Shown: piece after piece, positions 30,994-64,000 of the stretch
Layout of the letters: each line of letters starts with the position of its first letter
Position numbering within the stretch: the first letter of the stretch is position 1
Origin: a virus
Length of the DNA: 64,000 nucleotides
Direction: 5' to 3' (one strand)
IMG/VR virus record: IMGVR_UViG_3300023174_000122
Coordinates: 21,344-85,343 of that record
Notes under the pieces: model-generated
Told to the model about the DNA's origin: nothing
What the model saw: the letters and a program-made list of their open reading frames with translations, nothing else
Databases searched by the model: none
Position numbers and translations under genes: made by a program

Positions 30994-31022
30994 ATGATAC
31001 CCTGTCTTTAACTTTTTGTCAA
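30994..31022 (-). promoter_or_regulatory. Sigma70-like promoter for gene at 30987
   Basis: The minus strand reads TTGACA, a 17-base spacer ending GG, then TATCAT (30994-30999), only 6 bases before the ATG. It overlaps the 3' end of the upstream glycosyltransferase gene. The predicted transcript would begin at or within a few bases of the start codon. Confidence 0.65.
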
Positions 31023-32198
31023 GTCCATAGAAAATATATAAAATTTATTTGGGTTCTCATTTATTATTTTAATATCATAAAATTCTTGAACATTTTCATT
31101 GATATTTTTAATAGGTTTATTATCGAAAAATGCTTTTTCACTTAAGAAAACTTGACCTTTACTTAATATAAGATTATTAGATTTATAAAATATATTTTTA
31201 TTTGGTTGTAGGGTTATTTTTTCTTCTATCTCTTTGTGCTTTAAAGGAACCTGTATAATTATTCCTTCGTCTATATATGCCATTTTATATTTATTTAAAT
31301 CATCTTTTTCTAGGTATGAATATAATTGATATTTTATATTTAATCTCTTGAGGTCTTTAATGAAGCTTGCACTAGATTCATCTTGGATAAAGTAATTAAC
31401 GCCGAGAATTGCGGCTTTGTTCTGTTTTAAGATATCCAAATCAATAGGCCGATCAGAGGATATAATGCATGGCATTAATTTGAGTTGTTGATTTAAATTT
31501 TTCTCATCAAAAAATAAATCCATTCTAACTACGCCTTGATTTACTGTTTGAGTACGCTCTACAACATGATCAGGTACGATATGAAAAATTTTATTATTAA
31601 ATAATCTACCAAGATAAATAGTATTAATCAATGAAAGTTTATTCTTTATATTTAGAGTTTTTAAAATGCTCTGTGCAATTAGTTCTGGTTTAATATTATT
31701 AATAGCCCTTGGATTTTCGTCAGCTGAATAACTTGGTTTGCTACCATTTCTTTCTGGTTCTAATAAGATCATATCTTCTTCTTTAGTCCAATAAGGTTTT
31801 ACATTAGCTATATTGTTATTACTGTAAACTGCTACTATTTTTTTTCCATATCCAGATGCAATATGAGCTCCAAAGCTATCTGCTCCTACGTGCATTAATG
31901 AATTTTTAATAATATATGCTACTTGTTTGATGTTCGTTTGACCAACTACACTATAGCAATTTTGTAAAATAGGCTCTTTATCTGCGCCAATTTGGACTAT
32001 GGTTATATTATTTTCTCTTAAATGAGGCAAAATTAAATCAACAACTTCTTGCCAATATTCATAATTTTTAGAATTAAATTTGCTATACGGCTGTAAACAT
32101 ATATATTTTTCAAGAGCCAACGGAAAATAAGATTCCAATATAAATGGCTTTCCTATTTTTAATCCAGAAGATGTAGCGTATGATTCTATTAGGTGCAT
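31008..32198 (-). CDS. GT9-type glycosyltransferase, C-terminal half plus extra domain
   Basis: Residues 1 to about 180 match the second Rossmann half of a heptosyltransferase-like (GT9) enzyme: HLIESYATSSGLKIG, then ICLQPYSKF...YW, VQIGADKEP and VGADSFGAHIASGYGKKIVAVYS. The first GT9 half is missing here but is present at the C-terminus of the protein encoded at 32836-34752, two genes upstream. Residues about 190 to 396 form an unrecognised alpha/beta region. GT9 enzymes transfer sugars from nucleotide donors, commonly onto LPS core. It either acts with the other half or is a repurposed fragment. The gap to the upstream gene is 3 bases. Confidence 0.6.
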   Translation of the reverse strand: MHLIESYATSSGLKIGKPFILESYFPLALEKYICLQPYSKFNSKNYEYWQEVVDLILPHLRENNITIVQIGADKEPILQNCYSVVGQTNIKQVAYIIKNSLMHVGADSFGAHIASGYGKKIVAVYSNNNIANVKPYWTKEEDMILLEPERNGSKPSYSADENPRAINNIKPELIAQSILKTLNIKNKLSLINTIYLGRLFNNKIFHIVPDHVVERTQTVNQGVVRMDLFFDEKNLNQQLKLMPCIISSDRPIDLDILKQNKAAILGVNYFIQDESSASFIKDLKRLNIKYQLYSYLEKDDLNKYKMAYIDEGIIIQVPLKHKEIEEKITLQPNKNIFYKSNNLILSKGQVFLSEKAFFDNKPIKNINENVQEFYDIKIINENPNKFYIFSMDLTKS

Positions 32199-32201
32199 AA
32201 A

Positions 32202-32843
32202 TTAATGAAAATTTTCTCCATATTTAGGTAAAAATGCATGTCTTATTTCTATATTTGGTTCTACTATGATTCTATGTCCAAGAGCTCTAACTTTCTCAAA
32301 AAAAGATACATGATCTAATCTTTTGTCATTAATATCATATATTACTTTTTTATGTAAATGCGCTGGAACGATAAAACATGTGCCTACTGAATGAATCTCA
32401 GTTTTAACATCTCCATTGGATTTATTATAGGGTGGTTTAAAATCAAATTTAATTCCATTAGAATCTATAAAACCATCAATATCATAAAATCTTTTCCAAG
32501 GCCACCAATCATTATCTTCTATATAAACATATGGGGCAACTACTTCTGTCGTTGAAATAGATAACAATTTTTCAATTATATCAAATGGATATTCGACTAT
32601 ATCTGAATCCATCCAAAAAACATGAGTGTAATCATCAGTAAGATTTTCTTCTATTATTTTATTTCTTAATCTAATCAACTTAGCATATCTATGTTCATTA
32701 CCTTCAATATACCCATCATATACGGCTCGATGCTTGTTCTCGAATGTTAAATTATTAAATATATTCTCCGCATTTTGCTTCCAAATAAACCATGCTCCTT
32801 TTGGAGAGATGAGTTGTGGAACAAGCACTTTAATTTCATTCAT
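32202..32843 (-). CDS. GT-A-fold glycosyltransferase
   Basis: This 213-residue protein has a nucleotide-sugar-binding GT-A core: a first strand with KVLVPQLIS, then RLRNKIIEENL and a metal-binding DxD motif in FWMDSDIVEYP near residue 80. APYVYIEDNDWWPWKRFYD and a C-terminal EIHSVGTCFIVP strand follow, typical of small Anp1-like transferases. It transfers a sugar from a nucleotide donor; acceptor and donor are unknown. It overlaps the upstream glycosyltransferase by 8 bases and precedes the GT9 half by 3, so the three are co-transcribed. Confidence 0.65.
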   Translation of the reverse strand: MNEIKVLVPQLISPKGAWFIWKQNAENIFNNLTFENKHRAVYDGYIEGNEHRYAKLIRLRNKIIEENLTDDYTHVFWMDSDIVEYPFDIIEKLLSISTTEVVAPYVYIEDNDWWPWKRFYDIDGFIDSNGIKFDFKPPYNKSNGDVKTEIHSVGTCFIVPAHLHKKVIYDINDKRLDHVSFFEKVRALGHRIIVEPNIEIRHAFLPKYGENFH

Positions 32844-34752
32844 CTTTTAAATCGAAAGCTATATTTGTTTTACCATTATGTTGATAATTAAACATTCTTT
32901 GAGTTCCAATGTGTGGTAAAAATGCAATTTCAAAATATCCTTTATGATCTCCAATGCCCTCTAGCCATAATAATTGATCCATTTGTGGTATATATTGAAT
33001 GACTTTATCTACAAAAGGATTGCCTTCTAATATTGAAAAATATTGAGGGTTAGTAGCGACATATAATTTTTTATTTGGATATTGCTTTTTAATTGAAGAA
33101 AACAAACTAGTAGAGATGTATATGTCTCCTATTGACTCTGGCATAACATATAAAACTCTATCTTCTGGTTTTTCTGGACCTAATATTTCTTCAAAACTAA
33201 TTTTTTTATTTTTTTCATTTTCTTGAGCTGCAATTTTTCTGAAATAATTTTCAATATCGTTACGTTTTGCGCCTTTAGCTATTTGTTCAATCCAATACTT
33301 ATGACCATCATCATTGTGATCTACATGACTCATTTTAAGTATATTATTATACATGCAAGTTAGCCATTCTGCATCATCTTTAATTTCTGGTATTTGGAAA
33401 TATGGATCTCTTTGCTCCTCTTTTGCGGAAAAATCATAGTTTGTTTCTGGAGCACTATCAATAAAATCTTCTATAAATTTACCAACAGTTTCAACGGAGA
33501 AATGCTCTATAGTCCACTCTCGGGCTTTTTTGCCCATCTCTTTCTTTTTTAGAGATGGCATATTGTATACTTTATGTATTTGTTTCGCTATTGAAGATGG
33601 TTTAGTAGAAGCTTTTTTAAATTCTGTCCCATGCTCTCTATACTCTGTCCAATCAAGAGCTAAAGACTGAGCATCATCTTCGCACATTTCTTGCCCACAA
33701 CTATAGTCTGTAACTAAAGTTATAAGTTCTGTTAATTTAGCCTCTTGAATAGGAATTTCTTGACCTCCACTAGTAAATGGATGACAATATACATCCATCA
33801 AATTATATACTTCATTTAATTGCTCTTCTGTAATTCCTAAACCTACGTTTGTAGTGATTTGAGATTTTTCGCTACCGCAGAATCTACAATTAACTTCTTG
33901 CCCATGGAATGGTTTAATTTCATAGTCACCACAACTTCTGCATATATAAGTTGTTAGTATTTCCTTTAGGTCAATTCCATATTCTTGAGCTAATCTATGT
34001 ATATTCCATCCTTCTCCCCAATGAGTGTGCAAAAGAAGATATGTATTTTTAATCTTAGGATTCTGTTGTTTCCAAAGAGCATATCCTTCTAAAAGATTTG
34101 GTACGCTTTTTCTAAGCTGGTTTCTAAATACGAAACCAACTATGAATGCGTCTAATGGAATGTTGTTCTTTTTTCTGAGTTCTTCTTTTTTATGATTCTC
34201 TAGCCTATAAAAGTTTTTTGTTTCAATCGGTCCGTGTACAGTTTTAACATGTTTATGCCCTAGATCGTGCATTGCTTTTGTAGCAAAATTACTCCAAATC
34301 CAATAATTTTTAATTTTATCTGCTTTGGTAAGCGCAGATGGTAGAATAGGTAAAGAGTCTAAAGTCGTCCATAATACCGAAGGGATTTTATTAAACCATT
34401 TTTTATCTACTGAAAAATCAATACCCCAAATATCTTGCACGGCTATATAAATATCAGGTTTTTCTTCCTGCATTACTTTATCTAAGTAATGTGCGCCATA
34501 ACTAGCTAACCTAGCTACATTAGGGTCTTTATTTAATTCTTGTAATTCTTGTTGCGAATTAGGTAATGATCCTACGCTTTTCCATGGGGTTCTTTCAAAT
34601 TCTGGATGATGATAAGGTAATCCACAAGAATAATGCACTATGTCATATTTACCCGTATTATATAAATACGATAATAAAGCTTTCGCTGCCCTGCCAAATC
34701 CAGTTTTAGCTAAACTAAAATCAGATTGATATAGTAGTTTCTTTTTTTTCAT
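32836..34752 (-). CDS. Fused GT4-type glycosyltransferase with zinc ribbon and GT9 N-terminal half
   Basis: This 638-residue protein begins with a GT-B (GT4-like) transferase: TGFGRAAKALLSYL near residue 18, DAFIVGFVFRNQLRK near 201, and a donor-binding TSGGQEIPIQEAKL near 316. A Cys4 zinc ribbon (C271-x2-C274, C289-x2-C292) is inserted inside the second domain. From about residue 531 a new domain starts, VLYVMPESIGDIYISTSLFSSIKKQYPNKKL with LEGNPFVDKVIQY, which is the first Rossmann half of a GT9 enzyme. The second half is encoded two genes downstream. It probably glycosylates virion or host-surface glycans, acceptor unknown. A 4-base gap separates it from the upstream SSB-like gene. Confidence 0.65.
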   Translation of the reverse strand: MKKKKLLYQSDFSLAKTGFGRAAKALLSYLYNTGKYDIVHYSCGLPYHHPEFERTPWKSVGSLPNSQQELQELNKDPNVARLASYGAHYLDKVMQEEKPDIYIAVQDIWGIDFSVDKKWFNKIPSVLWTTLDSLPILPSALTKADKIKNYWIWSNFATKAMHDLGHKHVKTVHGPIETKNFYRLENHKKEELRKKNNIPLDAFIVGFVFRNQLRKSVPNLLEGYALWKQQNPKIKNTYLLLHTHWGEGWNIHRLAQEYGIDLKEILTTYICRSCGDYEIKPFHGQEVNCRFCGSEKSQITTNVGLGITEEQLNEVYNLMDVYCHPFTSGGQEIPIQEAKLTELITLVTDYSCGQEMCEDDAQSLALDWTEYREHGTEFKKASTKPSSIAKQIHKVYNMPSLKKKEMGKKAREWTIEHFSVETVGKFIEDFIDSAPETNYDFSAKEEQRDPYFQIPEIKDDAEWLTCMYNNILKMSHVDHNDDGHKYWIEQIAKGAKRNDIENYFRKIAAQENEKNKKISFEEILGPEKPEDRVLYVMPESIGDIYISTSLFSSIKKQYPNKKLYVATNPQYFSILEGNPFVDKVIQYIPQMDQLLWLEGIGDHKGYFEIAFLPHIGTQRMFNYQHNGKTNIAFDLKDE

Positions 34753-38140: not shown

Positions 38141-38779
38141 TTATACCTCTATCTGCCATTTTAATTTGTTCCAAACTTTTAAATTCAAATCAAGATCATT
38201 TATTGCATCGTGAAGACTTTCATAATCATGCTCTATGCCATTCTCTTTACCCAAAAAGGTCAAAGAGCTTTTAACGTTTTTCTTTCTGGTATTAAGAATT
38301 TTATATTGATATTCAAGTAAATCATCTTTAGGCGTATAAATAGAATTATACTTAATGCCTCTTGCTACGGCATTAGTATCTATGATTTTATTCATTAAGC
38401 CTTTCCAATTCGATTGCATAGTTTTATAATATTCTTTTATAAGATAAATGTCAAATCCTAAAATATTATGTCCAATTATATAATCTGCATTATCGAGCCA
38501 ATCTTTTATAGTAGGAAATACTTCTTTTGGATCAAATCCTTCTTTCTGAACTTTTCTATGATCATATCTTGTGATCCTCGCAGCATCTTCACTTATCTTC
38601 AAATCTGTATCCCATTTTAAATAGAAATTTTTCTGGTCTATCTTCTTGTCACCTTTAACTTTTATCATTGCTATTTGCCAAGGAATATTGTGACAAAAAT
38701 TAAGGCAAAGATTAAATGTTTCGCAATCTATAAAAACTATAGTCTTATCCTTATCGTATCTTAAAAGATGCTCGTCCAT
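38141..38779 (-). CDS. DEDDh 3'-5' exonuclease (proofreading subunit-like)
   Basis: This 212-residue protein has the DnaQ/RNase T exonuclease motifs: D18-x-E20 (FIDCET), Exo II GHNILGFD with D110, and Exo III H190-x4-D195. The histidine form makes it DEDDh. It probably removes misincorporated nucleotides for the split DNA polymerase III encoded next to it, or trims recombination intermediates. It is sandwiched exactly between the PHP-domain gene (start adjacent at 38780) and the acidic protein gene. PolC-type polymerases carry such an exonuclease inserted inside their own PHP domain. Here it lies between separated PHP and core genes. Confidence 0.85.
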   Translation of the reverse strand: MDEHLLRYDKDKTIVFIDCETFNLCLNFCHNIPWQIAMIKVKGDKKIDQKNFYLKWDTDLKISEDAARITRYDHRKVQKEGFDPKEVFPTIKDWLDNADYIIGHNILGFDIYLIKEYYKTMQSNWKGLMNKIIDTNAVARGIKYNSIYTPKDDLLEYQYKILNTRKKNVKSSLTFLGKENGIEHDYESLHDAINDLDLNLKVWNKLKWQIEV

Positions 38780-45752: not shown

Positions 45753-45781
45753 TTTATAATATAAGTTTATATTTTTAGCAA
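45753..45781 (-). promoter_or_regulatory. Probable promoter of recombinase operon with overlapping hairpin
   Basis: TTGCTA (45776-45781), a 17-base spacer, then TATAAA (45753-45758), 6 bases before the ATG at 45746. An inverted repeat CTTATAT-TTATA-ATATAAG (45747-45765, 7-bp arms) covers the -10 region and could bind a dimeric regulator. The -35 is weak. Confidence 0.45.
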
Positions 45782-46752
45782 GTTTTATTTTTATAATATT
45801 TTATAGTTTTCAATATGCCATCTTTAAATGAGGTAGCAGGAAACCAATTTAATTCTTTATTGATTTTAGTATTATCTATTGCGTATCTAAAATCATGCCC
45901 CTTACGATCTTCTACAAAAGATATGTAATCTTGTGGGTTAAGATTCATAGCCTCGCAGATATCATTAATAATCTCTAAGTTTGTTTTTTCACAATTTCCG
46001 CCAATATTATAAGTTTCTCCAATTTTACCATTATTTAATATGAGCCACACTGCTTCACAATGATCCTCAACATAAATCCAATCTCTTATATTTTTTCCAG
46101 TACCATAAACAGGTATTTTTTTATTATTTAATATAGAATTAATAACAACTGGTATGAATTTTTCATTATGCTGATTTGAACCATAATTATTAGAGCAGTT
46201 AGAGATTGTAGCTAATACTTTAAAAGTATGATGATAAGCTCTAACTAACATATCACTAGCAGCTTTTGAAGCCGAATATGGCGAATTTGGAGCATAAGCT
46301 GTTGTTTCCATAAATTTACCTTGTTCCCCTAAACTACCATAAACTTCATCAGTGGAAATGTGATGAAATCTGATTTCTGGAAAATCCCTAATAATTTCTA
46401 ATAAGTTAAATGTTCCTAATGCGTTAGACTTAAAAAATCTTCTTGGATCAGTTATTGAATTATCTACGTGTGTTTCTGCTGCAAAATGAACTATATGAGT
46501 TATTTTATTTTCTTTTAATATATTTTTAAATTTTTTAATTTCTATAGGAATTTCTAAATTCTCCAACCAAAAATCTTCAAATCTATATTTAATATTGTCT
46601 TTAAAGAAATCTGCGTTTTTTATATTTGCTGCACCATAATATTTCCCTGCAGTATCTATATTTACCAAAAGGTCTACTTCTTTTTTATTGATTATATATT
46701 TAATAAAATTAGAACCAATAAAACCAAGACCACCAGTTACCAAAATATTCAT
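45775..46752 (-). CDS. rmlB: dTDP-glucose 4,6-dehydratase-like enzyme
   Basis: This 325-residue extended short-chain dehydrogenase has NAD-binding TGGLGFIGS near residue 6, the diagnostic HHISTDEVYGSL near 132, and the catalytic YSASKAASD near 160 (YxxxK), with RDWIYVEDHCEA near 222. It removes water from a nucleotide sugar to give the 4-keto-6-deoxy form, the usual entry to rhamnose and many deoxy/amino sugars. RmlB is the closest family, although the exact donor is not settled. It overlaps the GDP-mannose dehydratase gene by 4 bases, so both belong to the carbohydrate cluster. Confidence 0.85.
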   Translation of the reverse strand: MNILVTGGLGFIGSNFIKYIINKKEVDLLVNIDTAGKYYGAANIKNADFFKDNIKYRFEDFWLENLEIPIEIKKFKNILKENKITHIVHFAAETHVDNSITDPRRFFKSNALGTFNLLEIIRDFPEIRFHHISTDEVYGSLGEQGKFMETTAYAPNSPYSASKAASDMLVRAYHHTFKVLATISNCSNNYGSNQHNEKFIPVVINSILNNKKIPVYGTGKNIRDWIYVEDHCEAVWLILNNGKIGETYNIGGNCEKTNLEIINDICEAMNLNPQDYISFVEDRKGHDFRYAIDNTKINKELNWFPATSFKDGILKTIKYYKNKTC

Positions 46753-47888
46753 GAATAGTTTTCTATATCTGATTTTACCATTTTTTCTATTAAATTATCA
46801 AATGAAACTTTTGGCGCCCATCCTAATTCTTCTCTGGCTTTTGTAGAATCTCCAAGTAATAGTTCTACTTCTGCTGGTCTATAAAATTTAGGATTGATTT
46901 GGACTAGAGTTTTGTGGTCCAAAACATACATTAAATGTTCGTTTTGACCAATCCAATCGCCTTTAATTCCAGCAATAGCAAAAGACTTCTCTACAAATTC
47001 TTTAATTGTATGAGTTTCATTTGATGAGAATACATATTCTTTAGGAATTCCATCATAATTTTTATTATAAATATCTTGATTTAACATCATCCAAACGCCT
47101 TCAATAAAATCTTCGGCATCACTCCAGTCTCTTTTGGCTTCCATATTTCCTAGTTCAAGTGGAAGAAATTCTTCATTATTTTTTAATGCGTGATAAATTC
47201 TAGATACATTTTTAGTAATTTTTCTTGTTACGAATTCTTCACCACGCCTTGTTCCTTCATGATTAAATAGCCAACCTTGAATAGCATATAAATTATAAGA
47301 ATCTCTATATACTTTAATCAGTTGTCTAGAGGCTGCTTTACTTGCTCCATAAGGACTTCTTGGCCTAAGAGGATGTTTTTCGTCTTGAGGAGTATAAAGT
47401 ACATTTCCGAACTCTTCACTAGATCCAGCTTGATATAGTCTACAGTTTGACTTGTATAGTCTAATAGCTTCAAGAATATCAAGAACTGCCGTAGAATTCG
47501 TAGCCCAAGTTTGGCGAGCAAAATCCCAGCTGCTTGCTACAAAACTTTGTGCTGCAAAATTAATAAAATAATCTGGTTGAAGTTTTTCTACTGTTCTAGC
47601 GATGGCATGAGAATCATTTAAATCAAAATTAATCAAATGAAATCTATCAGAATTAATATGTTTAATATTCTTATGATTATATACGCTCAGTCTTCTAACT
47701 CCGCCAAATATTAAAAGATCAGTATTCTTTAATAAAAAATCTACCATATGACTTCCATCTTGACCAGTTACCCCAGTAATAACTACAGTTTTTCTACCTT
47801 TTATTATTTTTGCTGCATCTTCGATGTTTAAGATATTAGCAGTATCTATCTTTTTGCCATAATAGGTTTCTTTAAAATTTTGGCTCAT
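46749..47888 (-). CDS. gmd: GDP-mannose 4,6-dehydratase
   Basis: This 379-residue protein has VITGVTGQDGSHMVDFLL near residue 35, INFAAQSFVASSWDFARQTWATNS, QAGSSEEFGNV, PRSPYGASKAASRQLIKVYRDSYNLYAIQGWLFNHEG and GNMEAKRDWSDAEDFIEGVW, which together identify GMD. It converts GDP-mannose to GDP-4-keto-6-deoxy-mannose, a precursor of fucose and related sugars. The N-terminus (MSQNFKETYYGKKIDTAN) is a few dozen residues longer than usual. A reductase/epimerase-like gene follows in the cluster (48522-49289), consistent with a downstream product. Confidence 0.9.
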   Translation of the reverse strand: MSQNFKETYYGKKIDTANILNIEDAAKIIKGRKTVVITGVTGQDGSHMVDFLLKNTDLLIFGGVRRLSVYNHKNIKHINSDRFHLINFDLNDSHAIARTVEKLQPDYFINFAAQSFVASSWDFARQTWATNSTAVLDILEAIRLYKSNCRLYQAGSSEEFGNVLYTPQDEKHPLRPRSPYGASKAASRQLIKVYRDSYNLYAIQGWLFNHEGTRRGEEFVTRKITKNVSRIYHALKNNEEFLPLELGNMEAKRDWSDAEDFIEGVWMMLNQDIYNKNYDGIPKEYVFSSNETHTIKEFVEKSFAIAGIKGDWIGQNEHLMYVLDHKTLVQINPKFYRPAEVELLLGDSTKAREELGWAPKVSFDNLIEKMVKSDIENYS

Positions 47889-48521: not shown

Positions 48522-49289
48522 TTATTTTGAATTTTGTATCAAATTATTTAAACTGTCTTCTATTGGTGTTAAATGCAAATCAGGAATATATTTATAGTTG
48601 CCAGTATACTTTAAATTATTATCGTTTTGTATAATAATATCACTTTTAGAATTAGATATATTTTTAATAATTTGAGCTATATCACTTAATTTATATTTTT
48701 TTTCATATACGCAATCAATTTCTTCATATTCTTCTGAGTTGTTAATTATGATTAAATCAATTAAATTAATTAAATCATTAATATAATATATATCAAAAAA
48801 TAAATTTTCCCAAATTACTATATCCTCATTTTTTAAACATTTTTCTATAGTTGAGTATACAAAAGAATCCTTCATGCCTAGTTCACCAAAAACATTAAAT
48901 ATTCTTAAATTTTTTATATTTTCTTTATCCTTAATTAGTGACGTACAAATCTTTTTACTCAAACCATAAAAAGTATCTTGTTTATATATTTCTGCTCCAC
49001 TAGAAAAAGTTATTAACTTTGTATTTTTCTTTTTAAAATTTAAAACATTATCTAATATTTTAATATTATTATAAAAGTCTTTTTCTGTATCTATTTTAAT
49101 TCTTCTCCCGCCCTTTACAGCAGAATTAATAATAAAATCAAAATCGTTAACGCTCAAATAGTCTTTTACTTTTTTAGCGTCAGTTAGATCTAGCTCTGAA
49201 CTAGTTGGATAAGATAAAGCGTATTTGTTTAATTTAGATATAGAACTTTTACCTACGAATCCAGAACCGCCAGCAACTAGAATTTTCAT
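48522..49289 (-). CDS. Nucleotide-sugar epimerase/reductase, GDP-fucose synthase-like
   Basis: This 255-residue short-chain dehydrogenase has a KILVAGGSGFVGKSS Rossmann start and an ELDLTDAKKVKDYL segment. FDFIINSAVKGGRRI resembles the AAKVGG region of GDP-L-fucose synthase, and YGLSKKIC supplies YxxxK near residue 108. It is shorter than a typical fucose synthase. It probably completes a GDP-sugar made by the GMD encoded nearby; whether the product is fucose, colitose or another sugar is unknown. It starts 1 base after the transketolase half. Confidence 0.6.
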   Translation of the reverse strand: MKILVAGGSGFVGKSSISKLNKYALSYPTSSELDLTDAKKVKDYLSVNDFDFIINSAVKGGRRIKIDTEKDFYNNIKILDNVLNFKKKNTKLITFSSGAEIYKQDTFYGLSKKICTSLIKDKENIKNLRIFNVFGELGMKDSFVYSTIEKCLKNEDIVIWENLFFDIYYINDLINLIDLIIINNSEEYEEIDCVYEKKYKLSDIAQIIKNISNSKSDIIIQNDNNLKYTGNYKYIPDLHLTPIEDSLNNLIQNSK

Positions 49290-57236: not shown

Positions 57237-57944
57237 TTATTTATTACGTTTAATTAAATCAACTTCAGTAGATGTAGTAATAAGTTTATTTTTAGTTTTA
57301 AAGAAAAATGTTTGATATAGTCTTCCTTCTTCAAAGATGTTTGAAAATCCATCAGCTCCACTGTGAGGTTTTTGAGATCTACAAAGAATCAATCTATTAT
57401 AAACTGCACCTAAAGAGTCTATTAATTTCCAATTTTCTTTAGAAGTCATCCAATCGTAATTATTTTTCTTATTAATATTTTCCCATAAAAATAGTCCAGA
57501 ATCAATTGGCGCTTGTGGATTTAAATAAATTAAACCTACCCAATCATTATGCTCTAGCGAATTCCACCAATCGGTTACATGGTTATGAACAGCATCTCCT
57601 AATTTCTGACCAACTAATGGTTTTATATGAAATGTGCAATTCCATTTTGGGCTTTTTTTTGGTTCTTCATGATTTCTTTTGCCATCACTATCATATGGGT
57701 GTTTAGGCCTAGTCCTTTGCCAATTTTCTCTATCTAATTCCTCTCCAGTTAAGAATTCTAAATTTTTAATTAGACTTTCTGAAGATTTGAATGGGCAGTC
57801 ACGCCATTCTTTAAAATTATTTGCATACCAATCTTCTGTGCCGTAAGGTAAATATCTATCAAATGTTAGTTCATGTAAAGCGTACTGTCTTACTTTATCT
57901 GGATCTTTATAAAAATTTTCTGCAATAATGATATCTTTTTTCAA
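57237..57944 (-). CDS. DUF6445-like, possible 2-oxoglutarate/Fe(II) oxygenase
   Basis: This 235-residue protein begins IIIAENFYKDPDKVRQYAL, the typical opening of DUF6445 proteins, which share the double-stranded beta-helix layout of Fe(II)/2-oxoglutarate oxygenases. Later come WVGLIYLNPQAPIDSGLFLW, NRLILCRSQKPHSGADGF and RLYQTFFF, matching the conserved end of that family (N-R-L...H.g..GF...RL.QtFFF). Whether the iron-binding triad is intact cannot be settled by eye. It overlaps the next oxygenase by 4 bases, making a two-oxygenase pair upstream of the HTTM genes. Confidence 0.6.
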   Translation of the reverse strand: MKKDIIIAENFYKDPDKVRQYALHELTFDRYLPYGTEDWYANNFKEWRDCPFKSSESLIKNLEFLTGEELDRENWQRTRPKHPYDSDGKRNHEEPKKSPKWNCTFHIKPLVGQKLGDAVHNHVTDWWNSLEHNDWVGLIYLNPQAPIDSGLFLWENINKKNNYDWMTSKENWKLIDSLGAVYNRLILCRSQKPHSGADGFSNIFEEGRLYQTFFFKTKNKLITTSTEVDLIKRNK

Positions 57945-58831
57945 GTTAATAAATCTCCTAAAGTTTGATTAAAGTATTCAAAATAAGTTGGACTAGACTC
58001 AAGGTCATAAAATTCTTCTTTTTTCCACCGTTCAAAAGTAGACCCTGTTTCTTTTTTCTTTTTCTTTATAGCCTCTAGGTTTCTTTTAATAATATAGTTG
58101 GGGTCGCTATGAAACCAGTGAACTATTGCACTTCTATCAAATTTTGCACCAATATATCCATGATATGAATACGGACAAACTTCAAAAGCAAATAGTCTGT
58201 TATTTACTGGTTTTACTTCTTTTACCAATGAATCTGACTCGTAATTAGTATATACTCCTGTGCCTCCACCATCTTTTTCTTCTAAAGGAGACTTATTGTT
58301 TAAGTAGTAAATAATCGCTATTTGTCTAGCAATTTTAGATGTATTTGGTTGTAAATTTTTAGAGTCATCTTGGTATTCGCAATCTACACCTGTTAATTTT
58401 ATTTTTTTATTTTTGTCGTTGATTGCAGAACAAATACCAAGATCTGCATGAGACCAACCATCTCTAGAAGGTTTTTCTTTTGATCCTTTATGTAAATGCA
58501 CTGACATAGCTAAGTGTTGATTTAATTCAACGCCAAAAAGTTGGGCTATAAAATCTTTATATACTTCTTCTGCAAAAAAATTATATCCGTCTGTGAGATC
58601 TTGTTCTTTTAACCCGTATATGTAAGCGTCATAGAGCAATTCTCCAGGACCTATTTTTCCAGCAGGTTTTTCTGTTTTTAAAATAAGAGATGCAAATTTT
58701 TTACATAATTTATTATAGATCTCTTCTGTAAAAAAATTATCTATTATAGCGTGATTATAAGGCTCGCTAAATTTTTCTATTTTAATATTTTCTGATATAT
58801 AAGGGTGACAGGTTATGGGTACAGAGTCCAT
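57941..58831 (-). CDS. 2-oxoglutarate/Fe(II)-dependent oxygenase, prolyl-hydroxylase type
   Basis: This 296-residue protein has SHADLG with the iron-binding H128-x-D130, GGTGVYTN (a beta-helix turn), and distal H224 with R233 in HGYIGAKFDRSAIVHWF, a complete H-x-D...H...R set of 2OG oxygenases. Length and layout suit prolyl/lysyl-type hydroxylases and related sugar or lipid hydroxylases. The substrate is unknown; candidates are virion or glycan substrates of this cluster. It opens an operon with a strong promoter (TTGAAA-17-TATAAT, 5 bases before the ATG). Confidence 0.75.
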   Translation of the reverse strand: MDSVPITCHPYISENIKIEKFSEPYNHAIIDNFFTEEIYNKLCKKFASLILKTEKPAGKIGPGELLYDAYIYGLKEQDLTDGYNFFAEEVYKDFIAQLFGVELNQHLAMSVHLHKGSKEKPSRDGWSHADLGICSAINDKNKKIKLTGVDCEYQDDSKNLQPNTSKIARQIAIIYYLNNKSPLEEKDGGGTGVYTNYESDSLVKEVKPVNNRLFAFEVCPYSYHGYIGAKFDRSAIVHWFHSDPNYIIKRNLEAIKKKKKETGSTFERWKKEEFYDLESSPTYFEYFNQTLGDLLT

Positions 58832-58955: not shown

Positions 58956-60239
58956 TTAATAAATAGCGTATTTTTGGTTTAAATAAGTTTCAACTTGCTG
59001 GCGTTCTGTTAAGGTTAATGTTCTATTATAAATTACTATTTCACATACATATGAATCAGATGCCTCTTCGTTCCCACCATTCCAAATTCCTCCACCAACT
59101 GATATTCCATTTAAAATAACTGTTGAATTAGAAGCACCGCTAGATTGTGAAACTCCATTTTGAGAAAAATCAAAAGTTGTATTTGGATCAGAAAATGCAG
59201 TTGTAATTAAAAAATCTGTTGAAGTTTGCTCTCCTTCAGCAAGCCACCCATTATCTCCTCCACCATAAAATCTATTACTATAATTACCCCATGTTCCAAT
59301 TAAAACATTACCAAAATAAGATGAAAATATTCTTCCAGTATTTGTTGATTTTTGTTTTGTAACTGAAAAGAAAGTAAATCCAGTAAGACCAAAACTAGTG
59401 TTACTTAATCCTGTGTTACTACCAACTATAAACTCTATTGCTGGTTTTCCATTTAAAAAAGAAGAAACAAAAGTTGGCGCATTTTGATTATCTGGAGTTA
59501 ATACAATACTATTTCCACTTTGATCTGCCCACTCAGTTACATAGTCTGAATTTGCTGTTGAAGTTGTAATGCTTCCGCTGATAGAACCAACTGGATAGAA
59601 TGCAACTGACGATGTTGTTGGAGATCCAGTTCCATTTACCAAAGTCCAAGCTCCAGAATAATTTGCGTTTGTATTTGTGGCTAGTAACTCGGTTGAATTG
59701 TCTAGATTAAAAAGGTTCTCTCCATTTATAAAATAAGGAAGTTTTACAAAACCCTCCGAATCTTCGTATGCGCCGAAAGTGTATGTTCCATTTGCAGGCG
59801 AATAGTCATCAGTAAATCCAGTAATAACCACTTGATTAAGACGCTGACCAAGTATACTCCAGCTTTCTCCATTGGATGAAGAAAATCCAATCGTATTTGA
59901 AATAACATATAAGAAAAATTGTTCTTCGTTAGAATCCCAAATTATTGTGTATCCATTTGTGGAAGATAGAGTATAATTATTAACTCTATATCCCTCATAG
60001 TTAAATGTCGGAACAGTTGTTGCCGTATATGTTCCATTAACACTTGGATTGCTTGTTCCAGATATTATAATCTCTGAGATATAATTAAATGAGAATTTGC
60101 TTACCCCAGCGTCAGCTTTCAACCAAAGAGATAATCCACCTAAACTTGATGGAAGAAAAGAAGCTCCTTGTCTTGGAATTTTGAAGGTTGTATTTTTTTT
60201 AAAATTTAAGTTTGCTTGTTTTTTAACTGTAAAAGACAT
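58956..60239 (-). CDS. LamG-like (concanavalin-type) adhesin
   Basis: This 427-residue protein starts GLSLWLKADAGVSKF, then EWADQSGNSIVLTP, LNGKPAIEFIVGSNTGL and FFSVTKQKSTNTGRIF, and ends SYVCEIVIYNRTLTLTERQQVETYLNQKY. This order is the LamG/pentraxin-like jelly roll found in many phage fibres and bacterial adhesins; the closing EIVIYNRTLTxxERQQVETYL is especially typical. An inserted Gly/Ser/Thr-rich block occupies residues about 55 to 200. It is probably a receptor-binding or decoration protein. It lies apart from the tail block, on the opposite strand. Confidence 0.7.
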   Translation of the reverse strand: MSFTVKKQANLNFKKNTTFKIPRQGASFLPSSLGGLSLWLKADAGVSKFSFNYISEIIISGTSNPSVNGTYTATTVPTFNYEGYRVNNYTLSSTNGYTIIWDSNEEQFFLYVISNTIGFSSSNGESWSILGQRLNQVVITGFTDDYSPANGTYTFGAYEDSEGFVKLPYFINGENLFNLDNSTELLATNTNANYSGAWTLVNGTGSPTTSSVAFYPVGSISGSITTSTANSDYVTEWADQSGNSIVLTPDNQNAPTFVSSFLNGKPAIEFIVGSNTGLSNTSFGLTGFTFFSVTKQKSTNTGRIFSSYFGNVLIGTWGNYSNRFYGGGDNGWLAEGEQTSTDFLITTAFSDPNTTFDFSQNGVSQSSGASNSTVILNGISVGGGIWNGGNEEASDSYVCEIVIYNRTLTLTERQQVETYLNQKYAIY

Positions 60240-60252
60240 AAATTATATTACA

Positions 60253-60519
60253 CTACTGTTTTAAGTAGTTTTTTATATCTTTTATTAGCTTTTTTCTCTT
60301 ATTGTGTTCTAATACTGTTACAAAAGTGGCAACTGATATTGGAAAAAATATCCTAAGAAAGAACTGAAGGTGATCTTCTCTACTTAATAAATCAAAGTAA
60401 TTAATATAAAGGTCACTTAGCCCCCAAAATGTGAAAAGCATTGCTGGAATAAATGTAATGAAAAAGAACTTATCATAAGTTTTTAAATTAATCCACCAAT
60501 TTTTTATTTTCATCGCCAT
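60253..60519 (-). CDS. Small membrane protein (holin-like layout)
   Basis: This 88-residue protein has two hydrophobic segments (KFFFITFIPAMLFTFWGL, FFLRIFFPISVATFVTVL) and a strongly basic C-terminus (NKRKKLIKDIKNYLKQ). This is consistent with a small membrane protein such as a holin, but no endolysin gene is visible nearby. MKIKNWW (ATG 60513) is an alternative start. It is separated by 18 bases from the upstream lipoprotein-like gene. Confidence 0.4.
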   Translation of the reverse strand: MAMKIKNWWINLKTYDKFFFITFIPAMLFTFWGLSDLYINYFDLLSREDHLQFFLRIFFPISVATFVTVLEHNKRKKLIKDIKNYLKQ

Positions 60520-60537
60520 ACATAGGCTTACACATTA

Positions 60538-60870
60538 TTAAATTGGAGTTGCTTGATATGGAACTCCATTTGATAATACTGGTGGTACTTTATATTGAGA
60601 ATCTGTTGGAGTAGACGAAGCTCCAGAGGCTGTGTCTGGAGAACTAAAAGTAGAGAATTGAAATTCTTTTTCCATGTTAACATCATTTTCATTAACCTCT
60701 ATTTGCTTAGACATACCGTTAACTTCTAGAGCTACTGGGCTTTTATGACCTGATACATTAAGCATCATTTCGCCTTGTTCATTTTTAGTTATTTTAATTC
60801 TTATTTGATCTTCTGTATAAGAATAAGTTGTTAATAGAAATGCCGCTAATAGTATTATTGTTTTTTTCAT
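60538..60870 (-). CDS. Secreted small protein with signal peptide
   Basis: This 110-residue protein has an N-terminal signal peptide (MKKTIILLAAFLLTTYSYT) with a hydrophobic core after two lysines, then a beta-rich acidic domain (KSPVALEVNGMSKQIEVNE) and a Ser/Pro/Thr-rich tail. It is probably exported to the periplasm. No family is recognised. It overlaps the upstream gene by 4 bases and belongs to the small-protein cluster 60253-61647. Confidence 0.5.
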   Translation of the reverse strand: MKKTIILLAAFLLTTYSYTEDQIRIKITKNEQGEMMLNVSGHKSPVALEVNGMSKQIEVNENDVNMEKEFQFSTFSSPDTASGASSTPTDSQYKVPPVLSNGVPYQATPI

Positions 60871-61193
60871 AAGGTTTTATATATTGGGGTTTGGAAAACA
60901 TTGGATTTATTTTTTAAACGTACTTGTTTCATGGTATAACCTATCATCACATACAAAGGTTCTTCTGAATTTGTAGGCTTTGCAGGTTTGCCTAGACTTA
61001 AAATATATTTATGGCTATCATGGCCAATAGGTTCTGCGCTCTGGGTAAAGCAAGAACCTTCATCTGTTACATATTCAAAATCCATGCCATAATTATCTAT
61101 TTGTTGTTTTACTAAAAACGGATGAGGACTATAAACTGTATAAAAAATACTAATTGCAATACAAATGCCCACGATAAAAGGTATCTTATTCAT
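60867..61193 (-). CDS. Small protein with N-terminal membrane anchor
   Basis: This 108-residue protein has an N-terminal hydrophobic anchor (IPFIVGICIAISIFYTVYS), then a soluble domain with a single Cys (GSCFTQSAEP) and YILSLGKPAKP. It is unrecognised. The start overlaps the gene upstream by 4 bases (ATGA-type), as does its stop with the next, showing tight coupling in this small-gene operon. Confidence 0.5.
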   Translation of the reverse strand: MNKIPFIVGICIAISIFYTVYSPHPFLVKQQIDNYGMDFEYVTDEGSCFTQSAEPIGHDSHKYILSLGKPAKPTNSEEPLYVMIGYTMKQVRLKNKSNVFQTPIYKTL

Positions 61194-61408
61194 TGGATTG
61201 TAAAAATAGAATACCTACCTTTGCCTAAGCATTGGTAATAGTATCTATACTTCTCTTCTCCAACTTTATGAACTCCAAAAACTTCATCTTTAAAGTAATC
61301 CTTTAAACTAACTGTGTCGTGATCTCCAACATGTTTTTTGATCCAAGTAGAAACTTCACCAACGTTTCCTTCAAAGACTACTACTTTTCCATGACTTGTG
61401 TATTGCAT
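61190..61408 (-). CDS. Hypothetical small soluble protein
   Basis: This 72-residue alpha/beta protein (GKVVVFEGNVGEVSTWIKKHVGDHDTVSLKDYF) is unrecognised and has no signal or membrane segment. It overlaps its upstream neighbour by 28 bases and its downstream neighbour by 4. It is possibly a cytoplasmic partner of the adjoining membrane proteins. Confidence 0.45.
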   Translation of the reverse strand: MQYTSHGKVVVFEGNVGEVSTWIKKHVGDHDTVSLKDYFKDEVFGVHKVGEEKYRYYYQCLGKGRYSIFTIQ

Positions 61409-61647
61409 TTTTCTGTTCCACTTGCTGTTTGTATATCTAAATTATTTTTAGTTTGTTTAGCTATTATTGATCCTATCATACTTAATATAAGAACGCAAGC
61501 AAAAATTAGAGCATAATGTGTTTTTTCTTGGGCTTTCTTCTTAGCCCTATATTGATGGAAATTACTTATGAAGGCTTCTGTATCTCTTTTTGAGGGAAGA
61601 CTTTTTTCATAATTACTTAATAATAAGTTTCTCATATGATTATCCAT
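61381..61647 (-). CDS. Small single-pass membrane protein
   Basis: This 88-residue protein has a cytoplasmic basic N-terminal part (NYEKSLPSKRDTEAF, HQYRAKKKAQEKTH) and a single membrane helix (YALIFACVLILSMIGSIIA), then a short Cys-containing tail. It is unrecognised. The layout resembles small anti-sigma or signal-coupling proteins but also many other small membrane proteins. It follows 9 bases after the pseudopilin gene. Confidence 0.45.
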   Translation of the reverse strand: MDNHMRNLLLSNYEKSLPSKRDTEAFISNFHQYRAKKKAQEKTHYALIFACVLILSMIGSIIAKQTKNNLDIQTASGTEKCNTQVMEK

Positions 61648-61656
61648 TGCTTTATT

Positions 61657-62316
61657 CTATCTGGCTTTTGTGTCAGATTCTAATATTACACTACCATCTG
61701 TTCTTAAAAGATTTCTTGTGCTTCCATGTGGATTTTTAATTGTTTTATCTAAAGCACCACTAGAATGATTAGTAAAAGCTTTGGTAAAGTCAACTAAGAA
61801 ATAATCATTTGTATCTAATGCTAATATTTTTTTAGAATTTTCTATACCATATTCACCACCTGCTCCTCCAAAACAAGATCCTCTTTTCCAAATAGTAGGA
61901 TGTTGTTCGTTGTGTGCAGGACAACTAAATACTGTATTTGCTTTCTTTTTTTTACCTGTATATGTAACAGGAATATAGTTAGTGAGATAATATTCTATGT
62001 TAGATTTATCAACTACATTTTGAGTTGTGCCACCAAATCTACTATCGCTAATAAATGTATTAATTGTTTGACCATCTGGACCTGGAGGCAACCAACCATC
62101 ATTTTCTGCTGCAAATAATAAAATACTTGTACCCACTTGTTTCATATTCGAAGCACAAGCAGCTTGAGACGATTTACGTTTTACTGCACCAAAAGCAGAG
62201 AATGATAAGCTCATTACGAATGCCATTATGACTATTACAACTGTCATTTCAACTAATGTGAAACCAAAAAATTTTAATAATTTTGGACGTTTTAAAAGCG
62301 TGTTGGGAGTTTGCAT
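61657..62316 (-). CDS. Prepilin-type pseudopilin with H-X9-DG signature
   Basis: The N-terminus of this 219-residue protein is a type IV prepilin leader (KFFGFTLVEMTVVIVIMAFVMSL; cleavage before F of FTLVE with a Glu at position 5). NMKQVGTSILLFAAENDGWLPP follows. The end carries H-GSTRNLLRT-DG, nine residues between H and DG, the processing-associated H-X9-DG motif common in Planctomycetota, Verrucomicrobiota and Lentisphaerota. It probably forms part of a type II secretion or pilus-like pseudopilus. AGGAG lies 6 bases before ATG 62316, a Shine-Dalgarno spacing unlike most genes here. It overlaps the upstream PEP-CTERM gene by 25 bases. Confidence 0.85.
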   Translation of the reverse strand: MQTPNTLLKRPKLLKFFGFTLVEMTVVIVIMAFVMSLSFSAFGAVKRKSSQAACASNMKQVGTSILLFAAENDGWLPPGPDGQTINTFISDSRFGGTTQNVVDKSNIEYYLTNYIPVTYTGKKKKANTVFSCPAHNEQHPTIWKRGSCFGGAGGEYGIENSKKILALDTNDYFLVDFTKAFTNHSSGALDKTIKNPHGSTRNLLRTDGSVILESDTKAR

Positions 62317-64000
62317 TTGTTTCTCCTCACGATTCTAAGGCCTATCAAAACACTAGCACCACCTAATAGAAGTGAAAATGTAGAAGGTTCTGGAATAACA
62401 TTTACTACTCCATCTGTGGTAAAACTATTAGCATCCCATTTCAAATTTGAATTAGCAGTATCTAAATTAGGTAATGCTGCTAGTAATGTATTAACATCAA
62501 ATGCAGATGCTTCGATTGACGCAAAATTAAATAAATCGTAACTATCATTCATTTGAAATGAGTAATTATCTAATGTTTCAAATGTCCATGATGTATTAGC
62601 CCCTAATGTTAACAAACTACTTACATTGATAGCATCGTAGGTGGTACCTCTGGTAGTTGGTGCGCCTAATTGGAATTGGAATGTTCCGTTACTTCCATTT
62701 AACTCATAAGCAGTTAGCAGACCAGGACTATTGCCAGGTGCCACAGTACCACCATTTAGAGTTAAGCCCTGCACACTACCAGAGCCACCTAATGTACCTC
62801 CTGTATTTACTAAAACATCTCCTGCACTTCCATTTACTGATAGTAAACTTCCATTGATAGTTGTACTACCAATATTACCACCAGAATTTACTGTTGCTGT
62901 ACCAGAATTGACGATAACAGTTCCAGCTGTTCCTTCTACTAATAATGTGCCACCACCTACAGTACTAGTACCCAAAAGACTACCGCCTGATTTTACATTG
63001 AGTGTGCCACCAGTATTAACTGTTGATATACCAGTTCTTCCATATACATCTAATGTGCTACCATTTATAGTTGTGATACCAGAATTGCCACCAGAATTTA
63101 CTGTTGCTGTACCAGAGTTGACAACAGTCTGTCCAACTGATCCTGATATCAACAAAGTGCCACCATTAACAGTAGCTTTCGAAGATGTACCACCTGTCTT
63201 TACATCAAAAGTACTGCCTGTTGCAATAGTTGTTTCACCTACTGTACCACTATTGAGCAAGCTTCCTCCTGTGAGAGTAGAGTTACCAAGAAACCCTCCA
63301 CTATAAACTGTAGCAGTTCCTGCAGACATGGAGAATGTACTGCCAGTTCCTCTCAAGTCCAAAGTACCACCACCTTGTGTTATTGTACCAGTTGTACCAT
63401 CTACTGATACTGTAGTGGTGACGCCGATAGAGAAATTACCAATAGTCCCAGTGCTATCAACTATTAAGTTTCCTGCGTTAGCAGTTATATTACCAGCTGT
63501 ACCTTTAACTCTTAAAGTTCCACCTGATACTATCGCAGCACTAGAAGCAATAGAGCCAGCAGTATCAACTACAAATATACCATCTTGTATGGTAGTGTCT
63601 CCATTATAAGAATTGACTGCTTGAAAAGTTGCTGTTCCAGTTCCTGATTTGGTTAAACCTCTGAGCGCAGACCCTGTATTGAGTAAGGAGCCCTTAAAGA
63701 GAAAATCTCCCACACCACCTACAACGCTTGTATCTGCAACTGTTCCTCCAATATCTAATGTTCCATCAAATTGCACAGTTAAATTGGTACTGTTATTGAA
63801 CAATCTTCTGCCACCACTTGAACCTGTAGATACAGTGAGCGTATTGGCACTATTAGTAAACTGCAGTAATGTTTTGTATCCTCCATGATTGGTAAAGTTC
63901 ATATTATTACCTTGATATTGATTCATAACATAAGTAGTAACAGCAGCAGAATTAGATCCTGCTAGATCCAATGTTCCCATAGTAGAAAGACTGGTTGACC
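62292..64000 (-). CDS. PEP-CTERM autotransporter-like beta-helix protein (5' end outside window)
   Basis: The frame is open past the right edge (reading ...STSLST before an internal ATG at 63980), so the start is missing. About 562 visible residues consist of Gly/Thr/Val/Asn-rich repeats with the signature TVNSGG, GGTLxVxGTAG and TVAPGNSPG of autotransporter-associated beta-strand repeats, forming a beta-helix. The C-terminus is a PEP-CTERM sorting signal: PEPSTFSLLLGGASVLIGL then RIVRRNK. Exosortase of the host would anchor and cleave it. Such proteins are surface proteins of Verrucomicrobiota/Planctomycetota-type bacteria. It shares an operon with the H-X9-DG pseudopilin. Confidence 0.85.
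   Translation of the reverse strand, partial: STSLSTMGTLDLAGSNSAAVTTYVMNQYQGNNMNFTNHGGYKTLLQFTNSANTLTVSTGSSGGRRLFNNSTNLTVQFDGTLDIGGTVADTSVVGGVGDFLFKGSLLNTGSALRGLTKSGTGTATFQAVNSYNGDTTIQDGIFVVDTAGSIASSAAIVSGGTLRVKGTAGNITANAGNLIVDSTGTIGNFSIGVTTTVSVDGTTGTITQGGGTLDLRGTGSTFSMSAGTATVYSGGFLGNSTLTGGSLLNSGTVGETTIATGSTFDVKTGGTSSKATVNGGTLLISGSVGQTVVNSGTATVNSGGNSGITTINGSTLDVYGRTGISTVNTGGTLNVKSGGSLLGTSTVGGGTLLVEGTAGTVIVNSGTATVNSGGNIGSTTINGSLLSVNGSAGDVLVNTGGTLGGSGSVQGLTLNGGTVAPGNSPGLLTAYELNGSNGTFQFQLGAPTTRGTTYDAINVSSLLTLGANTSWTFETLDNYSFQMNDSYDLFNFASIEASAFDVNTLLAALPNLDTANSNLKWDANSFTTDGVVNVIPEPSTFSLLLGGASVLIGLRIVRRNKCKLPTRF
62323..62327 (-). promoter_or_regulatory. Canonical Shine-Dalgarno before pseudopilin
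   Basis: AGGAG on the minus strand lies 6 bases before ATG 62316. Most minus-strand phage genes here lack such a site, so it supports a host-like origin of this end of the window. Confidence 0.6.
62851..62912 (-). repeat. Near-identical repeat in autotransporter gene, copy 1
   Basis: This segment aligns almost base for base with 63061-63122, 210 bases (70 codons) away, including a shared CCAGAATTTACTGTTGCTGT on the plus strand. The 70-residue period is the beta-helix repeat unit. It is a recent tandem duplication or is kept uniform by recombination. Confidence 0.8.
63061..63122 (-). repeat. Near-identical repeat in autotransporter gene, copy 2
   Basis: Second copy of the 62-base near-identical repeat, 210 bases from copy 1, in the same reading frame. 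Confidence 0.8.

Follow-up and report, generated by a model that had tools for sequence, protein, structure and literature searches.

PEP-CTERM sorting counts as a surface system of bacteria with ties to exopolysaccharide. According to PMC3237569, a signal peptide is present in every PEP-CTERM protein, and every species with such proteins has an exosortase. Pseudopilins of the H-X9-DG/DUF1559 type are found in bacteria of the Planctomycetota–Verrucomicrobiota–Chlamydiota (PVC) superphylum and in Armatimonadota. In this study, a window of 64,000 nucleotides (G000:C1:21344-85343, the whole stretch of DNA analysed), which is the right end of the linear IMG/VR virus record IMGVR_UViG_3300023174_000122 of 85,343 bases, was investigated for two neighbouring genes encoding a PEP-CTERM/PATR repeat protein and a pseudopilin. 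Both genes are carried within a phage genome, a point that leaves very little doubt, and belong to a variable locus upstream of the terminase gene, where exported PEP-CTERM proteins are encoded by between one and three genes beside small membrane-protein genes. We consider, with middling confidence, that the window holds the 3' part of a phage-borne surface-remodelling locus cut by the contig end, perhaps used for superinfection exclusion. The two genes and their signals are listed below; bracketed numbers denote protein clusters across the contigs compared.

62292-63998, (-) strand: PEP-CTERM/PATR repeat protein, family [0]; cut at its 5' end by the contig end, with 568 residues visible
62322..62396, (-) strand: PEP-CTERM tail of [0], residues 535-559, with PEP motif, hydrophobic helix and basic end (TIGR02595)
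63570..63656, (-) strand: PATR (autotransporter-associated) repeat of [0], residues 115-143 (PF12951)
61657-62316, (-) strand: pseudopilin, family [4], 219 residues, an optional member of the locus (PF07963, TIGR02532)
62206..62265, (-) strand: prepilin cleavage/methylation motif GFTLVEM, pseudopilin residues 18-37 (PF07963)
61693..61728, (-) strand: H-X9-DG motif, pseudopilin residues 197-208 (literal motif, alignment)

One or both proteins have relatives in 23 IMG/VR contigs besides the window (the pseudopilin at 12 loci, the PEP-CTERM protein at 21), and the names of these contigs hold 19 different sample numbers, the prefix presumably being the sample number. Some copies occupy internal positions in records of 134, 172 and 217 kb. 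The usual gene order is [12] (often), [0], an optional [4], [2], [13], [3], [10] or [20], [1] and variable genes, and then a sigma-like factor [6], [7], an ERCC4 nuclease [8] and the terminase [9]. Sixteen of the 24 records have a terminase with 77-100% identity; G006 gives a match of 28%, and seven records, including that of the window, give none. The probable capsid gene of the window record, named from its position and our own reading and without a PHROG match, is 67-74% identical in nine other records; because all of these also hold the terminase, the window phage is assigned to the terminase clade. Three contigs (L007, L008 and L012) have different surroundings and no close terminase, so the pair seems to be present in at least two phage groups.

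A sequence-only reading had placed the two genes beside a phage genome and offered two explanations, surface-altering phage genes or the host side of a prophage boundary. The conserved gene order ending at the terminase, and the terminase and probable capsid genes carried by nine of the other contigs, put them inside the phage genome instead. The boundary explanation fails, as the flanking phage genes are conserved together with the pair and an integrase (PF00589) was detected in 0/24 phage records (control found in 14/14 genomes); a prophage edge or host fragment was rejected because the pair lies within a phage gene order conserved across contigs. Phage carriage, the first half of the other explanation, stands, and the surface alteration is a prediction taken up below. 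Since the window ends where the record ends, no rightward extension is possible. The first and last 3 kb of the contig have no 20-mer in common, and a circular contig or terminal repeat was rejected on this ground.

The phage group is known from environmental DNA only. In the INPHARED collection neither protein of the pair nor the capsid candidate was matched, and the terminase of L011 matches 59 records, all below 60% identity. Terminase relatives in IMG/VR amount to 484 confirmed stretches; the best 80 were retained, and the 43 of these in records of at least 14 kb were searched. Family [0] was matched at 1e-10 in 15/43. Nine regions, hand-picked among the 43, were read; G597, G605 and G610 have no [0] match, yet between one and three PEP-CTERM genes stand at the locus position; G596 and G601 have one each and G599 two. 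A crude tail pattern run over 35 loci matched 42 of 764 open reading frames (ORFs), 41 of them at this locus; one match was false (L222:9391, family [3]), and a protein of 597 residues in L019, seen by eye, was missed. In the window and two stretches to its left, the only match among 81 ORFs was the window [0] itself. When ten further phage proteins were scanned, nine had a match to one PEP-CTERM model or another at E<=0.5, and four of the nine reached or exceeded the cut-off of TIGR02595; the 542-residue protein of L184 matched no PEP-CTERM model. The tagged proteins change faster than the terminase and their turnover is fast: L011 and L030 have terminases that are 100% identical and PEP-CTERM proteins that are 59% identical over 667 aligned residues, and the pseudopilin is present only in L011.

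The window [0] scores 16.4 bits with TIGR02595 (PEP_CTERM, cut-off 16), in agreement with its earlier naming as a PEP-CTERM protein, and 28.4 bits with the PATR model PF12951 (cut-off 27) in the Pfam scan; Ser and Thr make up 27% of its residues. It had also been called an autotransporter, and only part of that name can be kept. The protein has PATR repeats, but scans against Pfam and NCBIfam revealed no translocator barrel family of a Type V autotransporter and its C-terminus is the PEP-CTERM tail, so it is not an autotransporter in the strict sense. Its best segments are 75-89% identical to IMG/VR relatives in the 11 best of 21 loci. The PEPS motif is invariant in the 16 aligned [0] proteins, among which the PEP_CTERM model is found in 15 and the beta-strand repeat model in 13 at E<=1; the L003 copy scores 18.7 bits with TIGR02595. 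The repeat number varies among copies, and full-length relatives begin with a signal-peptide-like N-terminus (crude pattern), where the window copy is cut. The median ratio of nonsynonymous to synonymous substitution (dN/dS, Nei-Gojobori) is 0.21 for [0] (115/120 pairs used) and 0.18 for the pseudopilin (54/55 pairs used); both genes are under purifying selection. The PEP motif is kept and a clear hydrophobic helix or basic end is absent in L011:6890-9847, L034:1384-3159, L034:3163-5208, L184:4537 and L221:11022, which may represent a different type of anchor or a form that is not anchored. ORFs of 52 residues, scarcely more than a PEP-CTERM tail, stand beside full-length copies (L034:5212-5370, L184:6310) and look like recombination leftovers.

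The window pseudopilin scores 22.5 bits with PF07963 (cut-off 21.2) and 18.2 bits with TIGR02532 (cut-off 16.3). Its relatives at the 12 IMG/VR loci are 70-98% identical, and both GFTLVEM and the literal H-X9-DG residues H197, D207 and G208 are invariant in the 11 aligned phage pseudopilins. The name H-X9-DG pseudopilin is thus borne out by the prepilin models and the literal motif, and not by the dedicated model TIGR04294, which gave no score in 4/4 phage pseudopilins (one at E<=0.1, three at E<=1) and scored under its cut-off in 1/4 cellular relatives. DUF1559 (PF07596) was not found in the Pfam scan of the window pseudopilin at E<=0.1. A phylogeny, which the sequence-only reading had proposed, was built for the pseudopilin: in a quick tree the 11 full phage copies form a single group (Shimodaira–Hasegawa-like approximate likelihood ratio test 100), separate from 17 cellular copies, which is consistent with a single old acquisition. 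The junction at which the gene could stand is visible in 22 of the 24 contigs, as L031 and L033 end too early, and the gene is present in 13 of these (the window and L003-L014, the L014 copy being cut). No remnant was found in the other nine at E<=0.01; L174 and L175 retain a 31-residue match to the pseudopilin start. A predicted structure (predicted local distance difference test, pLDDT, 39.8) was not used. Pilin-motif proteins were also seen in other virus records, namely L055:7998-9107 (369 residues), L056:8001-8849 and L057:8001-8849 (282 residues); they show 31-34% identity, look unrelated and have no PEP-CTERM gene nearby by pattern.

According to the mechanism that we propose, the phage would make an exported beta-repeat protein that is rich in Ser, Thr and Gly and ends in a PEP-CTERM tail. 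Several small proteins, membrane-bound or exported, and optionally the pseudopilin would be encoded alongside, upstream of the packaging genes. A host exosortase would process the PEP-CTERM tail, a host prepilin peptidase would act on the pseudopilin, and the infected cell would display the products on its surface; judged from their signals, they are probably host-processed surface proteins. Such remodelling would mask or change receptors against rival phages, and superinfection exclusion, the most likely benefit, is put forward tentatively. The pseudopilin may aid its partner via the host type II secretion or pilus apparatus. Exosortase (PF09721), which had been named earlier as a gene to look for, was detected in 0/24 phage records (control found in 1/14 genomes), as was prepilin peptidase (PF01478; control found in 12/14 genomes). 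The presence of a PEP-CTERM substrate implies an exosortase-bearing host (PMC3237569), and the host probably supplies both enzymes.

Verrucomicrobiota is our best guess at the host, because the nearest cellular relatives were found there, with the pair side by side in one genome (G114). A scan of one set of genome contigs gave seven pseudopilin relatives, namely three from Lentisphaeria/Lentisphaerae, one from Verrucomicrobia subdivision 3, two from Armatimonadota (Chthonomonas and Fimbriimonadaceae, so placed by name) and one from another bacterium; six of the seven genomes hold an exosortase. In the phylum of the subdivision-3 genome, a pseudopilin relative was present at 1e-6 in 346/387 genomes, and a [0] relative at 1e-45 in one of the 387, G114, and in 3/286 genomes of its class. 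In G114 a PEP-CTERM/PATR protein and an H-X9-DG pseudopilin are neighbours on one strand. Phage [0] proteins are about 33-47% identical to the best matches in those three genomes, and a G654 protein is 49% identical to the L011 [0] over 602 residues. The suggestion that the pair points to a PVC host was therefore reasonable, with relatives in Verrucomicrobiota and Lentisphaerota and also in Armatimonadota. A comparison of 20 kb of L011 with 384 genomes of one class gave two DNA matches, which represent homology rather than spacers because they lie inside the PEP-CTERM and pseudopilin genes. Among 28 cellular loci (7 + 20 + L078), a PEP-CTERM-like tail stands near the pseudopilin in five, four of which also have a recognised pilin ORF; since most flanks are 1.5 kb and no background rate is available, no cellular association is claimed. 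At L228:7931-13927 (G491), a cellular pseudopilin lies 58 bases upstream of a 1,712-residue exported-looking protein, possibly another pseudopilin-substrate pair.

Several observations weigh against the surface-remodelling explanation. Two clade members, L217 and L218, have no PEP-CTERM genes at the locus position (in L219 the position is not covered), and 9/22 contigs have no pseudopilin (L018, L019, L023, L025, L027, L029, L030, L034 and L035); the pseudopilin is therefore not needed by [0], and neither gene is essential. The window [0] is truncated, stands barely above the PEP_CTERM cut-off and falls just under that of PF07589 (20.2 vs 20.7 bits), and a variant tail without a clear membrane helix occurs in three copies (L011, L034 and L184). 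The absences of sorting enzymes and integrase are weak and count as support rather than proof, because most of the 24 records are fragments. The DNA search of L011 against the 384 genomes gave no spacer link to a host, which also limits the PVC clue.

Other explanations of the locus were weighed against the same evidence. It could be a lysis or release cassette, with [1] as a holin, the small exported proteins acting like spanins and the PEP-CTERM protein and pseudopilin helping to weaken or pass the outer layers. Every product looks membrane-bound or exported, [1] has two hydrophobic segments and the locus is near the packaging genes, but no locus protein scanned matched a holin, spanin or endolysin family, and the PEP-CTERM and pseudopilin genes are optional whereas [1] is widespread. 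To our knowledge, purposeful anchoring tags and fast turnover are untypical of lysis genes, and we judge this explanation improbable. Action at the surface for aggregation, adhesion or persistence of infected cells, instead of exclusion, is unlikely. In its favour, PEP-CTERM proteins are linked to floc formation in other bacteria (PMC9850573; also a citation in PMC12642866). Weak matches to related PEP-CTERM models were obtained for a G492 relative and two other phage-locus proteins, floc_PepA being matched by L079 and L013; these floc_PepA matches are far under the cut-off (26.1 and 16.9 vs 80), and a phage with no detected integrase would gain less from a long-term change in host behaviour.

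Chance retention of captured host genes with little or no phage benefit would agree with the different presence of the genes between near-identical phages. It is already disfavoured by dN/dS values well below 1, by the conserved position in the clade and by the one deeply separate group of phage pseudopilins, and is very unlikely. Equally slight is the chance that the PEP-CTERM protein or the pseudopilin is a virion component: the former is repeat-rich and diversifying, and a LamG-like protein with a virion structural PHROG match (58956-60239) lies two genes beyond the locus proteins, but a signal peptide, a PEP-CTERM tail and a prepilin motif without variation all mark proteins for export. 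That the genes are host DNA from a prophage edge, or that the contig is chimeric, is scarcely credible; although the genes stand at the contig end and have cellular relatives, the other 23 contigs, some with internal copies, link them to terminase and capsid candidates, and no integrase was detected.

Returning to surface remodelling, a further candidate member of the locus is [12], a protein of 176 residues encoded outside the window, with a hydrophobic segment at the N-terminus and three invariant motifs (NSC, GHA and YDP). We take these motifs to be a papain- or transglutaminase-like Cys-His-Asp triad, a lead only, which structure searches did not confirm. The predicted structure has a pLDDT of 53.3; Foldseek gave no match at E<=0.001, its weak rows being vasohibins and AvrPphB (cysteine proteases) together with many unrelated folds, and a profile search of solved chains gave unrelated rows only (best E 0.0083). 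The gene is directly upstream of the PEP-CTERM gene in L005, L010, L011, L014, L019, L025, L029 and L030 and in all six hand-read terminase regions with PEP-CTERM genes. It is one gene further away in L013, L023, L034 and L035; the intervening gene has the PEP-CTERM pattern in all of these but L034. In L004, L007, L008, L031 and L033 the gene is missing from that place. A bolder and doubtful version of the mechanism would be that a hypervariable array of several exosortase-substrate genes, an optional dedicated pseudopilin and a membrane-anchored [12] hijack host sorting and pilus-type export and rebuild the surface of the infected cell, with [12] as a protease or transpeptidase acting on the tagged proteins.

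In the window, the PEP-CTERM/PATR and pseudopilin genes share 25 bases and come first in a closely packed series of seven genes, all on the (-) strand (60253-64000), which agrees with the overlapping operon described from the sequence. The five genes downstream of the pseudopilin, down to 60253, are mostly membrane-bound or exported-looking by eye:

61381..61647, (-) strand: family [2], 88-residue single-helix membrane protein, conserved beside [0] or [4]
61190..61408, (-) strand: family [13], 72-residue protein, conserved; 28-base overlap with [2]
60867..61193, (-) strand: family [3], 108 residues, hydrophobic segment at the N-terminus, conserved in the locus
60538..60870, (-) strand: family [20], 110-residue exported-looking protein; slot held by the FecR-domain protein [10] in other contigs
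60253..60519, (-) strand: family [1], 88 residues, two hydrophobic segments, conserved at the locus end; holin-like by eye only

Library scans of [2] and [1] gave no family match, apart from one non-significant match each (Pfam and NCBIfam, respectively). The L023 copy of [10] matches PF04773 at E 1.1e-7. Families [2] and [13], which are overlapping separate genes in the window (61190-61647), form a single fused protein of 154 residues in L007, L008 and L012. A Shine-Dalgarno sequence had been credited to the pseudopilin gene alone, a claim that does not hold: among 60 candidate ORFs, 10 show at least five matching bases within 20 bases upstream, and AGGAG-type sites with usable spacing also precede 38141-38779 and 57237-57944. 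Elsewhere, the window encodes a DNA polymerase, a DnaB-like helicase and a UvsX-like recombinase, and at 57237-58831 (-) a 2-oxoglutarate/Fe(II) oxygenase-like protein (PF13640) adjoins a match to a 'minor coat protein' PHROG. Five glycan genes lie on the (-) strand at 31008-32198, 32836-34752, 45775-46752, 46749-47888 and 48522-49289. This set (a GT9-like and another glycosyltransferase, two GDP-mannose-dehydratase-like proteins and one epimerase-like protein) is consistent with a surface theme and does not prove it.

The protein families at this locus are known; what looks new is that phages use them jointly as a variable locus. The literature searched, outside which most subscription papers lie, contained no account of PEP-CTERM proteins encoded by a phage. 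If the proposed mechanism is true, viruses exploit exosortase by supplying their own tagged proteins. This would account for the variation in the surface presented by one phage clade and would suggest that a large uncultured group (the 484 terminase-relative stretches) has hosts with exosortase. The proteins would also be natural test substrates for exosortase and for those pseudopilins whose role is poorly known.

Among the described systems, phage morons and superinfection-exclusion genes are likewise accessory, optional and variable genes for envelope proteins, whereas the proteins here use a prepilin signal and the C-terminal signal of a host sorting pathway, and no integrase was detected in the phages. 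Flocculation PEP-CTERM proteins (PepA, NF033554) are also exported and thought to shape the cell surface; the phage and nearby cellular members fall far under the cut-off of that family, and the passenger here is a PATR repeat protein. With H-X9-DG/DUF1559-type pseudopilins, the window protein shares the prepilin motif, an H-X9-DG near the C-terminus and cellular relatives in the same bacteria, but it differs in the separate phage group, the unscored TIGR04294 and the missing DUF1559. Closest is PEP-CTERM/exosortase (EpsH) sorting, where one substrate family likewise has several members. The difference is that here no exosortase was detected in the same records, and the substrates are phage-encoded, number one to three and occupy a variable locus upstream of the terminase.

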